64,000 nt of DNA, from the NCBI GenBank assembly GCA_012295275.1, contig CM022671.1, positions 8,474,386-8,538,385 on the forward strand, given 5' to 3'. Made by a program: the position numbers and the translations under genes. Position 1 is the first letter of the stretch. Each line of letters starts with the position of its first letter. Positions 3,451 to 63,467 of the stretch are shown piece by piece. The notes beneath the pieces are model-generated. The model was not told the origin of the DNA, did not search any database, and saw nothing but the letters and a program-made list of their open reading frames with translations. Source of the DNA: Chrysomallon squamiferum. Lineage: Eukaryota > Mollusca > Gastropoda > Neomphalida > Peltospiridae.

Positions 3451-6400
3451 ATGGAATCTTGGCTGTTTTTTGTAATTCTTGCAGGTGTCACATTGCGATG
3501 TTCAGAAACAGGTAAGTTCCAAGAAATCCTGTTAACAAAGCAATGTTTCTACCGACATGGATTAAAATGTAATTTTCTTTTCATTCATTTATCTGTTAAT
3601 CTTTCTCTCTATCTGTACACAAACATATATAGATACAGACACAAACAGGTACATACACACATACATCAAGCATACTTCAAAACATGTATAGTGATATTAT
3701 CTTTTCTGTATTATTATTATTTATTATCGAGGGTGGAGACATCTTATTATCTATTTCAGTATGCTTATTTAGAAATATATATATATATATAAAGGAAAAA
3801 GAATTATCAGAAGACACAAATAATAATTTATTAACATTTGTGCGCGTTATATTATATTATATTATCTAATATTATATTATATTATATTATATTCCTTTTT
3901 GTAATTTGTAAAATATACACTTGTCATTCCAATGTCTGCAAGGACTTGAAATCAGCGACGGCAGCTACACGAGAAATATCACCTGCAGTGACAACACTGG
4001 ATATAATATAACACAAATATATCAGAGTTCTACAAATTTTATTAAACTGAGACTTAATAATGGACAAATAAATGGTGGAAAAATATGGATTCAAATAAAT
4101 GGTAATAAATTACTTTATTCGCCTATGAATTATCTGAAATAATATACTGAATGTAACACACACACACACACACACACACACACACACACACACACACACA
4201 CACACACACTAACACACAGATATATACGTGCACATATACCCACTACATACACCTACATACACACATTAAAAAACATAGTCTAATACACATATTCATACGT
4301 ATTTACTATTTAGTATAAATGTAATCATTCTTATTATGATCATCGTTATCGTCGTCGTCAGCATTATTATTACTACTACGGCTGCTAATACCTCTACTAC
4401 AACTACTACCACTATGATAATTATTATTATTATTATTATTAGTAGTAGTAGTAGTAGTAGTAGCAGTAGTAGTATCAGTAGTAAGTGTTGGTATTACAGC
4501 AGACTACATCTGTTCGGAAACACATTAATTTATATATATAAATGTTCGTATACTGTAGAGTATGTATGTTAGTAAACATATAAGTTTATATATGTGTGTT
4601 CGTATTACTGCATACTAAGTATGTTAGTAAACATATAAGTTTATATATGTGACTGTTCGTATTACTGCAGACTACGTGTGTTAGCAAACATATAAGTTTA
4701 TGGTTTTTGCTCTTTTCCATATTCTCTTGTATAACGTAGCCACAACCCCTGGTGTTGTCCTAACCCTGACGTGTGGTGTCACTGACCAGACATCTACTGC
4801 AGTCACCACCAGCAGAACGTCAACATCAGGTATAATTAGAACTGTAATTGATAGTTCACAAAATGATAATGCCTCTCTGAAAGTTTCAGAGATAATTTAT
4901 ATTATTACAGCCAGATAAAATGTGTTCTATCAAAGTGCATCCATATATATGTTTATATTAATAGGCTAATCACTGATATATATTTGATTTAATTTGGCGT
5001 TTTCTTGTATAATTTATAACTCTCAGAGATATCCCAACTGACTCTAAGTAGAATTATAATTTTGTTGTTTTGTTGTTTTTTAGTTTATAAGATTGTGGAT
5101 ATGTTATTTAACGACGTGCTTTAACACATTTTTAAATCTACATAATATAAATACTTTTCTTCTTACAATGTATCTTTTGTCTTAACTGTTACATGTTAAT
5201 ATAACACATTTTACAGTTCCAAACGTGGTCAGAAAATCAAACATTTAAACTATTTCAGATGGGACGGCTGGTTTAGATAGTGGAATTTTGGCAGGAATCA
5301 TCGTATGCATTATAATTCTGATAGTGCTGGTGGTTATTCTTGTTAATGTGTTTTACATACGGTATAGAAATCGAAAACAAAACGTAAGTAACAATTATTT
5401 GTAGTAAAAGACATTAAGTGTATTTACTACAAGTGGTATTAGCACGTCGTAATAATACTAGTTCCATTAGTGCTTGAATAAAATTAATGACTAGCAAAGT
5501 GTTTTTTAGAGTGCGTTGCCTTTCCTTTAAGGTGATAGAAGCCTTTTCCCAAAGTAGAACTGAAATGCACTCCTTCCATAGCCTAAGGCCAGGTTTCAAA
5601 AGAAAGTTCCAAAAGTGTCCACCATTCAACTTAAACTTAACCTACAAAATTGATATCTAGATCCAAAGTCTGTTAAACAGACAGGGATATATACATAATA
5701 CACATATACATACTACATACATAAACAAATATATACATATACAGATACTCTCACACATACATACATAGATACATAAATATCACTTTTATCATCATCATTA
5801 TAATAGTTGTGATTATACAATGTTTTTCAGAGGGTTGGAGTGGATGACAATAACCAAAATACAAGAAGTGGACTTACTACACCTTCACCTTCATCCAATA
5901 TAGTGCCTCCGCCAACCGGACCAAGAAGAAATAGGTTACCTCCATTACCGCCAACCGAAGCAGAAAATGGATCGTCTCCCTCACAAAGTTCAGGACCAGA
6001 AGATGGATTACCTTCTATACTGACTTTACAAACAAATATAAAAAATTTAAGTTGATAGAAGCCTTTTCCCAAAGTAGAACTGAAATGTACTCCTTCCATA
6101 GCCTAAGGCCAGGCTTCAAAAGAAAGTTCCAAAAGTATCCACCATTCAACTTAAACTTAACCTGTAAAATTGGCATCTAGATCCAAAGTCTCTTAAACAG
6201 GCAGGCATATATACATACTTATGTAAATATATACATAATACACATATACATACTACATACATAAAAAAAATATATATACAGATACTTTCAAACATACATA
6301 CACAGATACATAAATATCACTTTTATCATCATCAGTATCATAATTGTAATTATGCAGTGTGTGTTTTTCAGAAGGTCGTTGTGGATGACAGTAACCAAAA

Positions 6401-6857
6401 TACAAGAAGTGGACTTCCTACACCTTCACCTTCATCCAATAGATTGCCTTCGTCAACCAGAGCAGTAAATAGATTACTTCCATTACCACCAACCGGAACA
6501 GAAAATAGTTTACCCACATTACCACCAACCGGAACAGAACATAGATTACCCACATTACCACCAACCGGAACAGGAAATGGATTACCTACATTACCACCAA
6601 CCGGAACAGAAAATAGATTACCCACATTACCACCAACCGGAACAGAACATAGATTGCCCACATTACCACCAACCGGAACAGGAAATGGATTACCTACATT
6701 ACCACCAACCGGAACAGGAAATATATTACCTACATTACCAACAAGCGGAACAGGGAATGGGTTATCTCCCTCACTAACTTCAGGAGCAGAAGTTGGATTA
6801 CCTTCTGTACTGACTTCAGAAGCACGAAATGGATTGCCTCCCGTACAGACAATGTAA
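3451..6857 (+). CDS. Copy 1: shortened family member, type I membrane protein with two alternative tail exons
   Basis: Exons by alignment to the complete copies: E1 3451-3511 (signal peptide, starts MESWLFFVIL), truncated E3 3943-4101, E4 4740-4829, E5 5259-5383 (transmembrane, GILAGIIVCIIILIV), then E6a 5831-6055 or E6b 6372-6857. The whole SUEL-like exon E2 and the first half of E3 are deleted. A new acceptor, CTGCAAG before 3943, would rejoin E1 to E3 in phase 1. All junctions stay in frame, giving about 219 residues with E6a or 306 with E6b. E6b carries the 11-residue LPPTGTxNxLPT repeat; E6a has diverged and stops early. A polyadenylation signal AATAAA lies at 6892-6897. Whether it is expressed, or is an early pseudogene with clean junctions, cannot be told from sequence. 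The E1-to-E3 junction is the weakest call. Confidence 0.65.
4157..4209. repeat. (CA)n microsatellite in intron 3 of copy 1
   Basis: A CA run just after the E3 donor. The same intron carries a CA or mixed CA tract at this place in copies 3 (17541-17571) and 5 (about 40503-40555), and a GT tract in the inverted copies. It is followed at about 4327-4480 by ATC/ACT/AGT trinucleotide tracts, also shared by the family. Confidence 0.95.
5532..6571. repeat. Tandem direct duplication of intron 5 plus E6 in copy 1
   Basis: The segment starting 'gatagaagccttttcccaaa' at about 5532 recurs at about 6053 with only scattered differences. It runs through the same intron sequence into a second E6 start at 6372. 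The unit is about 520 bases. The duplication supplies two terminal exons, each preceded by a TTTTTCAG acceptor. The first copy reads through the join and stops at 6053-6055 (TGA), which lies inside the repeated boundary sequence. Confidence 0.85.
6505..6745 (+). repeat. 33-bp coding minisatellite in E6b of copy 1
   Basis: Tandem 33-base units coding the 11-residue motif LPPTGTxNxLPT, with x varying (E/G, N/H/S, R/G/I). About seven units in a row, then degenerate units to the end of the exon. The unit is divisible by three, so gain or loss of units keeps the frame. The matching exons in copies 4 and 6 have different unit numbers. Confidence 0.9.
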
Positions 6858-63340: not shown

Positions 63341-63467
63341 TGCGGTGGCTGTAGTATATGTCGCGTTGGTTTTAGTTGTAGTTGATGTCACGATGTCATG
63401 CATGGCGCTTGGGTCGTCTGGTTAGTGACACCACACGTCAGGGTTAGGACAACACCAGGGGTTGTGG
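63341..63467 (-). pseudogene. Copy 9: isolated fourth exon, broken
   Basis: The minus-strand E4 starts normally (acceptor CGTAG, then ATTPGVVLTLTCGVTNQTTQAPCMT), but reads a TGA soon after CMTS, and its donor GT is TT. No E5 or E6 follows; the flank of copy 8 begins instead. Sequence to 64000 is typical intron 3 (trinucleotide and GT tracts), so an E3 of this copy may lie just beyond the window. Confidence 0.83.

Follow-up and report, generated by a model that had tools for sequence, protein, structure and literature searches.

To our knowledge, few architectures have been described among the variable receptor clusters of invertebrates. The diversified lectin-type recognition genes of snails, FREP, CREP and GREP, combine Ig with fibrinogen, C-type lectin or galectin domains. 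All three are described as restricted to Heterobranchia (PMC8878817). Biomphalaria GRC/PTC1 and PTC2 are clusters of gastropod genes for single-pass membrane proteins with fast-changing ectodomains. PTC2 proteins, of 166-530 codons, are reported to lack known domains apart from the membrane segment and to share no homology with the GRC genes (PMC7494358), four of which are reported to carry FN3 (PMC4361660). TMEM154 and Rifin Pfam calls have been reported for some GRC/PTC proteins (PMC10875847).

We analysed a 64,000-nt stretch of Chrysomallon DNA (the window), in which exon-by-exon tblastn confirmed the original prediction of a nine-copy family, finding it at nine sites on both strands. Like GRC/PTC, the family is a cluster of predicted single-pass receptors with fast-changing ectodomains; the systems are compared here by description, with one Chrysomallon assembly, and the variation is allelic in GRC/PTC whereas here it lies between paralogues. 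Weak TMEM154 or Rifin Pfam calls also appeared in three of the four cluster proteins of one set and were below the cut-off in copy D. The whole-protein Pfam and PDB matches lay mainly in the membrane segment or next to it, and we rejected those to RIFIN, TMEM154 and sodium channel beta-4 as compositional. On the whole-protein search (best 25 of 34 families), an ECSCR match in D was just above the cut-off. The cluster would join FREP, CREP and GREP as diversified lectin-type recognition genes of snails; no Ig, fibrinogen, C-type lectin or galectin Pfam match was found in exons 2 and 3 taken singly or in copy D (best 25 of 34 families). We hold the identity and evolution of the cluster as described below with high confidence, and the whole explanation, a cluster of SUEL-CUB type I receptors for recognition, to be probable.

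Intact and broken copies

Copies D, F and H splice cleanly into frames of exactly the predicted 500, 588 and 391 residues, with zero internal stops. All 15 of their introns are GT-AG (15/15), with phases 1,1,1,1,0. The products are predicted to have a signal peptide, two Cys-bearing ectodomains, a Thr/Ser stalk, one transmembrane helix and a variable tail, which agrees with the claim of a surface-protein family.

Copy D (34173-29978, minus strand) is clean throughout. Its exon 1 (34113..34173) encodes the signal peptide, with a hydrophobic window of 2.91, and is followed by a GT donor. Exon 2 (33469..33843), identified by tblastn, splicing and profile comparison, encodes the SUEL-like lectin domain, and exon 3 (31891..32235) the CUB-like domain, for which sister exons match Pfam CUB weakly. 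The LTLTCG motif and Thr/Ser stalk (S+T 42%) are in exon 4 (31210..31428), the transmembrane helix in exon 5 (30708..30796) and the proline-rich tail, with 36-bp repeats, in exon 6 (29978..30391). Copy F (49207-44947, minus strand), also clean, has the signal peptide in exon 1 (49147..49207), the SUEL-like domain in exon 2 (48571..48948), the CUB-like domain in exon 3 (47282..47626), a stalk of 52% S+T in exon 4 (46545..46736), the transmembrane segment in exon 5 (46009..46133) and a tail with 12 repeat motifs in exon 6 (44947..45612). In the likewise clean copy H (61306-57654, minus strand), the corresponding exons are at 61246..61306 (signal peptide), 60652..61026 (SUEL-like), 59421..59762 (CUB-like), 58847..58945 (short stalk), 58251..58357 (transmembrane) and 57654..57845 (short tail). 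Near copy H, another partial tail-like stretch occurs at 57172-57342. The cluster tails are proline-rich and variable in length; those of D, F and H contain 7, 12 and 2 repeat motifs, respectively, and zero tyrosines. For exon 3, an alternative acceptor 18 nt upstream was dropped, as the C1 and C5 paralogues support the acceptor further in.

Six of the nine copies in the window (A, B, C, E, G and I) are broken, and the predicted tally of one frameshifted, one exon-reduced and four decayed copies was borne out. The frameshifted copy is C (15016..19433, plus strand), with six exons at 15016-15076, 15391-15765, 17073-17417, 17914-18051, 18460-18585 and 19056-19433; its exon 3 start was set 18 nt further in, as for D, F and H. 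A single extra base (n=1) in its transmembrane exon 5 puts the tail out of frame. Copy A (3451..6857, plus strand) retains exons 1, 4 and 5, half of exon 3 and a pair of tail exons at 5831-6055 and 6372-6857; the other half of exon 3 is missing and exon 2 is deleted. The decayed copies are B (9392..10753, minus strand; exons 3-5), E (39030..41022, plus strand; a decayed exon 2, an open exon 3 and a truncated exon 4), G (53339..53819, plus strand; exon 4 and the last part of exon 3) and I (63406..63468, minus strand), an exon 4 remnant with an apparently lost splice donor. The remainder of I would lie past the window, where 5000 bases are N, so this copy could be followed only to the window end.

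The cluster was said to fill the window. Copies do occur throughout it, but the family is not confined there: copy J, which has a one-base lesion, and the decayed copies U1 and U2 are found no more than 18 kb upstream, a remote copy lies on the same contig at C7:26.45-26.46 Mb, and paralogues are found on two other contigs, C5 and C1 (C1:32.4 Mb). In the 404.6 Mb genome, exon 3 is matched at least 14 times at E<=0.001, with at least 11 of these matches at 8.457-8.534 Mb on C7, all genome-wide match counts being lower bounds; the family is clustered more than expected by chance. A gap of 200 N interrupts the window at 26301-26500; on its flanks a 2.65 kb stretch is repeated (95%), a pattern suggestive of contig ends that overlap. 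No tRNA or Rfam match at gathering scores was found.

Disabling lesions are common to B, E, U1 and U2, so B and E did not die independently. Together with U1 and U2, these two copies are assigned to an older lineage that was already broken (type 2), to which G is assigned by exon 4 alone. Of the proposed fast birth and death, the expanded cluster with its pseudogenes therefore stands, but the decayed copies do not serve as a measure of rate.

The ectodomain and a conserved molluscan relative

Exon 2 encodes a SUEL/rhamnose-binding-lectin domain of divergent sequence, and the domain in exon 3 is CUB-like. None of the seven exon 2 sequences (C, D, F, H, J, C5 and C1:32.4 Mb) matched Pfam SUEL directly over the curated cut-off, and the SUEL homology was found by profile via a conserved relative. 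An alignment of the C5 paralogue, the C1:32.4 Mb paralogue, H and D, compared by hhalign with 11 proteins related to the ectodomain, gave E 1.1e-21 over 252 columns, from the signal peptide to the stalk. Ten of these 11 proteins are named as gastropod or bivalve, and 10 of the 11 match Pfam SUEL (PF02140) at E<=1, the best at 3e-06. The family had been called unfamiliar, which is not supported, given this homology to a conserved molluscan SUEL-CUB receptor. Protein-collection searches with the cluster alignments gave no match (E<=10; E<=1) among the 7994 or 7998 candidates that had the most words in common with the query.

The relative is uncharacterized (Gigantopelta LOC121370277, Haliotis LOC124113640, Pomacea LOC112566040). 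It shares the order of the whole ectodomain with the cluster, including the CC-x(5)-DC motif and a CG segment before the stalk, at ~25% identity in the aligned part. One copy of it was found in this genome with queries other than its own sequence. At C1:7.94 Mb, a SUEL exon over the Pfam cut-off is followed 5.6 kb downstream by a relative of exon 3, found with a separate query at E 5.6e-5; as in the cluster, each domain of this gene has its own exon, in phase 1, and its best orthologue, at 86%, is in the confamilial Gigantopelta. With an exon 2 HMM, the C1:7.94 Mb SUEL exon ranked first outside the family at 14.8 bits, where the highest-scoring of 500 shuffles reached 10.1, and the other five SUEL exons did not stand out. 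By domain order and by homology along the whole ectodomain, the cluster belongs to the molluscan SUEL-CUB family; profile comparison thus shows it to be related to an unnamed receptor with the same ectodomain plan, common to gastropods and bivalves.

The cytoplasmic parts differ. The tail of the molluscan receptor is long, with several tyrosines and a conserved SVTF..P.A.V.P motif, whereas the cluster tails are tyrosine-free proline-rich repeats. Nine of the 11 relatives end in ETGV, which we take to be a PDZ ligand; neither this C-terminus nor the conserved motif is present in the tails of D, F, H and C5. We found no description of a SUEL-CUB receptor in the literature, including the available text of PMC8878817, PMC2430599, PMC7142155, PMC7895826, PMC4361660, PMC10875847 and PMC6626399. 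The homology places several molluscan proteins listed as uncharacterized in one receptor family.

The SUEL/rhamnose-binding lectins latrophilin, EVA-1 and the egg lectins have a domain homologous to exon 2, with part of the cysteines aligned, and we know of no CUB domain in them. In latrophilin-1, sugar is reported to be contacted by the Glu after the first Cys and by a Lys in loop 2 (PMC2430599). Neither residue is kept in any of the seven exon 2 sequences, which have His or Tyr after the first Cys and Met at the aligned loop-2 Lys site. With the sugar-contact residues replaced, the ligand of the cluster SUEL domain is probably not rhamnose or galactose, and from the loss of both contacts we predict a protein ligand or some other non-canonical one.

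Evidence for the CUB-like domain came from single-exon Pfam scans, in which copy E (E 0.012), copy H (E 0.03) and the C1 paralogue (E 0.044) aligned with Pfam CUB over nearly its whole length. Their scores of 16.3, 15.1 and 14.5 bits are below the cut-off (21.4 bits), and the exon-by-exon scan gave no Pfam CUB match of any kind in exon 3 of C, D, F, J and C5. The AlphaFold model of exon 3 is CUB-like, with Foldseek matches that are not significant; that of exon 2 (pLDDT 44) is too poor for a reading of the fold.

Selection and the role of the cluster

In the SUEL exon, the M1a/M2a comparison was significant (p 2.3e-4) and placed 23% of codons at omega 4.05. The 2dlnL of 16.8 was reached in 0 of 60 null simulations, in which the maximum was 4.71. 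Codons of the SUEL domain are thus under diversifying selection, and the CUB-like exon is constrained (omega 0.56, <1 at p 0.031). Between D and H, exon 2 is 74.9% identical vs 81.9 and 78.9% for its flanking introns, and between D and F 77.3% vs 79.5 and 83.6%, gapped columns being left out. Trees of the two ectodomain exons conflict (KH z 4.36 for exon 2, -2.16 for exon 3), which indicates exchange between copies. The suggested resemblance to recognition receptors gains support from the diversifying codons of the outer domain.

One alternative is relaxed constraint, with most copies dying, one or two functional, and the SUEL domain drifting without positive selection. The SUEL exon has an M0 omega of 1.12, not different from 1 (p 0.61), and the six broken copies, together with the lesion in J, would fit such decay. 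However, the advantage of M2a over M1a exceeds all 60 null simulations, these genes show constraint in exon 3, and D, F and H keep their splice sites and frames; we regard relaxed constraint as unlikely.

For the role of the cluster, we lean towards recognition of a changing partner as the best reading. In the plan of signal peptide, SUEL-like domain, CUB-like domain, LTLTCG segment with Thr/Ser stalk, one transmembrane helix and tail, the SUEL domain would be the contact face for a variable ligand, presented by the CUB-like domain and stalk. That ligand would most likely be a non-self or symbiont surface molecule. The tail may dock SH3- or WW-type adaptors through its repeated PxxP-like units, and not signal by tyrosine phosphorylation. 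Immune or symbiont recognition specifically is a tentative reading of these features. A SUEL-CUB receptor common to gastropods and bivalves, from which a diversifying cluster has also arisen, offers a well-defined candidate for sensing non-self or symbionts that can be put to the test.

The partner could also be a gamete, the cluster then encoding egg- or sperm-surface receptors. SUEL domains are reported to have been first found in egg lectins (PMC2430599), CUB folds occur in spermadhesins (the CUB spermadhesin 1sfp is among the non-significant Foldseek matches), and gamete proteins also duplicate and diversify under selection, so that diversifying selection fits equally well. The many similar paralogues would suit repertoire-type recognition somewhat better, and we consider a role in gametes rather unlikely.

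It appears still less likely that the expanded family serves to recognise or tolerate the endosymbiont in the oesophageal gland of this symbiont-dependent vent snail. Expanded families tied to innate immune regulation and symbiont-containing vacuoles are reported in Chrysomallon (PMC7142155), but the main text of neither snail paper (one being PMC7142155) mentions a SUEL or CUB domain. A broader scheme, which we think quite improbable, would have one snail-wide system in which the conserved SUEL-CUB receptor seeds lineage-specific clusters with a diversifying lectin and swapped exons, Biomphalaria PTC2 being unrecognised members.

Upstream elements and the duplication unit

The cluster copies on both strands have repeated flanks, as parts of a transposable element might, but exon 3 matches are few and clustered, introns are common to the copies, a relative with the same plan occurs in 11 proteins from other species, including orthologues in other molluscs, and the upstream-element matches found all adjoin family copies, so that a transposon origin of the exons, checked as the refuting case of the original prediction, has a negligible probability. 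An element upstream of copy A (2462..2819, plus strand) could represent 5' UTR or promoter sequence belonging to the unit; the 13 genome matches found all fall within the cluster or next to the remote copy, at C7:26.45-26.46 Mb. For a second upstream element (1577..2096, plus strand), which is 92% identical at copy D, all seven matches found are in the cluster or at C7:26.45 Mb. The upstream element duplicates along with the gene copies.

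Nine copies in the window and their extent in the genome

Exon-wise tblastn recovered all nine copies (A–I) that the original prediction had placed at 3451–63467, each on the strand assigned to it. The cluster is real and its earlier description correct. The spliced lengths of D, F and H come to 500, 588 and 391 residues, just as predicted, and their frames contain no inner stop. C is frameshifted in its transmembrane exon by a single extra base. A has no exon 2 and is missing half of exon 3 but keeps two tail exons; the remaining four copies, B, E, G and I, have decayed. All 15 introns of D, F and H are GT-AG, with phases 1,1,1,1,0. 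Because the Chrysomallon squamiferum assembly was built from ONT reads, one-base lesions may represent sequencing errors. The two tail exons of copy A (5831–6055 and 6372–6857) lie in tandem, each with an acceptor and a stop, and are possibly alternative tails. An AG acceptor-like site is found 15 bases 5′ of the ATG in A, C and D. F and H have CG at the same place; only the A, C, D group might have an intron in its 5′ UTR.

Exon 3 was searched against 404.6 Mb in 22 sequences, where match counts are lower bounds. At least 14 matches were found at E ≤ 0.001: at least 11 within 8.457–8.534 Mb of C7, the contig holding the window (at 8474386–8538385), two on C5 (5.03 and 5.05 Mb) and one on C1 (32.44 Mb). 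Further copies precede the window: J, in which all six exons are present with one extra base in exon 4, and the decayed U1 and U2. Of the two copies on C5, one is fully open (387 residues), with phases 1,1,1,1,0 as in D, F and H. Elsewhere on C7, 18 Mb from the cluster, another decayed copy (C7:26453680–26455719) has part of exon 2, at 26.46 Mb, and both elements seen upstream of copy A (1577–2096 and 2462–2819). All matches found for these elements (7/7 and 13/13, respectively) fall within the cluster or close to C7:26.45 Mb, which suggests that the duplicated unit includes its upstream region.

A SUEL-CUB relative and the identity of exons 2 and 3

Scanned one at a time, seven exon 2 sequences gave no Pfam SUEL match. 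With C5 exon 3 as query, C1:7946622–7946945 was retrieved (E 5.6e-5), and 5.6 kb upstream of it lies C1:7940777–7941049, one of six SUEL matches reported in the genome. When 1845 reading frames and 500 shuffles were ranked with an exon 2 profile, this SUEL exon was top outside the family (14.8 bits versus 10.1 for the best shuffle); no stand-out score was seen for the other five genomic SUEL exons. The SUEL exon and the exon 3 relative, found separately, therefore point to one gene (C1:7937800–7949800; loci L037 and L042). Its reading frame runs uninterrupted from exon 2 through to the stop and encodes SUEL, CUB-like, stalk and transmembrane segments and a 329-residue tail with several tyrosines and a C-terminal ETGV; its exon 1 was not found.

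Eleven relatives of this protein occur in the protein collection at E ≤ 1.3e-61: eight carry gastropod names, two bivalve names and one no name, and none has an assigned function; the closest orthologue, from the confamilial snail Gigantopelta aegis, is 86% identical. Profile–profile comparison of these 11 with an alignment of H, D and the C5 and C1:32.4 Mb paralogues gave E 1.1e-21 over 252 columns. Pfam SUEL matched 10 of the 11 at E ≤ 1, the first of these under the cut-off, and against the PDB their profile returned latrophilin or rhamnose-binding-lectin chains in six of seven rows (E 0.007–0.16). By its ectodomain, though not by its tail, the cluster falls in the molluscan SUEL-CUB receptor family. 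No paper describing this receptor was found in the literature consulted; the conserved gene at C1:7.94 Mb, uncharacterized in molluscs, itself deserves study. An inverted pair of further SUEL-like plus CUB-like sets about 12 kb apart at C1:3837000–3852800 (L043 and L044; 3.84 and 3.85 Mb) has exon-2-like followed by exon-3-like frames, with a Thr/Ser stalk frame visible at L043.

For exon 3, Pfam CUB E-values were 0.012 (copy E), 0.03 (copy H) and 0.044 (C1 paralogue), all below the cut-off, and there was no match for C, D, F, J or C5. The fold list contained many CUB chains, not significant, and a nucleoplasmin-like protein stood higher by Z. Taken together, the weak Pfam matches and the fold list make exon 3 likely to be CUB-like.

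A FREP-type gene was rejected as the identity of the cluster. The cluster appears to work like the polymorphic transmembrane clusters of Biomphalaria (GRC/PTC1 and PTC2), an analogy and not a claim of common membership.

Turnover, selection and probable exchange between copies

A 12-nt stretch in exon 3 is common to B, E, U1, U2 and C5 and absent from D and F, which puts B, E, U1 and U2 in an older lineage (type 2); G joins them on the evidence of its exon 4 only. Two one-base deletions and a stop are common to exon 2 of E and U2, and an in-frame TGA occurs in exon 3 of B, U1 and U2 but not of E. The simplest reading is that the type 2 lineage was broken before it duplicated, in which case counting its copies as separate deaths overstates turnover.

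Among C, D, F, H and J, pairwise omega was 0.86–2.29 for the SUEL exon and 0.36–0.84 for the CUB-like exon (10 pairs each), and the dN–dS interval was entirely above 0 for one of the 10 SUEL pairs. In codon models, M0 omega for the SUEL exon was 1.12, no different from 1; M2a was favored over M1a (p 2.3e-4), with omega near 4 at 23% of codons, and 60 simulations under the M1a null reached a maximum of 4.71 versus 16.8 observed. The CUB-like exon had omega 0.56 and a weaker M2a signal (p 0.021). For D–F and D–H, similarity of exon 2 is below that of both adjoining introns; for F–H, the only segment that falls behind by a margin is intron 2. The exon 2 tree ((C,D),(F,H),J) differs from the exon 3 tree ((C,H),(D,F),J), and each is poorer on the other exon (KH z 4.36 and −2.16). 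This conflict points to exchange between copies, which can itself bias selection tests.

Putative receptor architecture and an assembly gap

The copies would encode type I receptors in which a fast-changing, lectin-like outer face is paired with a constrained CUB-like module. The Thr/Ser stalk is 36–52% S+T, and the proline-rich tail has 63–221 residues, no tyrosine and 2–12 repeats. Tails of the C5 and C1 paralogues have one related motif only (ALPTAGSAKELPSL, ALPTTGRGNALPPL), and the 36-bp tail repeat may have grown from a single motif in tails of this type. According to PMC2430599, sugar binding by latrophilin-1 needs two residues, the Glu that follows the first Cys and a Lys in loop 2. In all seven exon 2 sequences His/Tyr replaces the Glu and Met the Lys, the latter position being taken from our own alignment; a protein ligand, or one of another kind, is therefore more likely. 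In copy C two cysteines are gone together, which is consistent with a single disulfide.

The window also contains a 200-N gap (26301–26500) whose flanks, 23641–26300 and 26501–29149, are alike at 95% across 2.65 kb, in direct orientation, and are, judging from this match, probably overlapping contig ends. The 24-bp minisatellite at these flanks is thus likely to have been doubled by assembly. At 22855–24267 it comprises ~59 units, and part of its length is open on both strands, for 186 codons; its Pfam YTV repeat match, over the cut-off, was taken as compositional.
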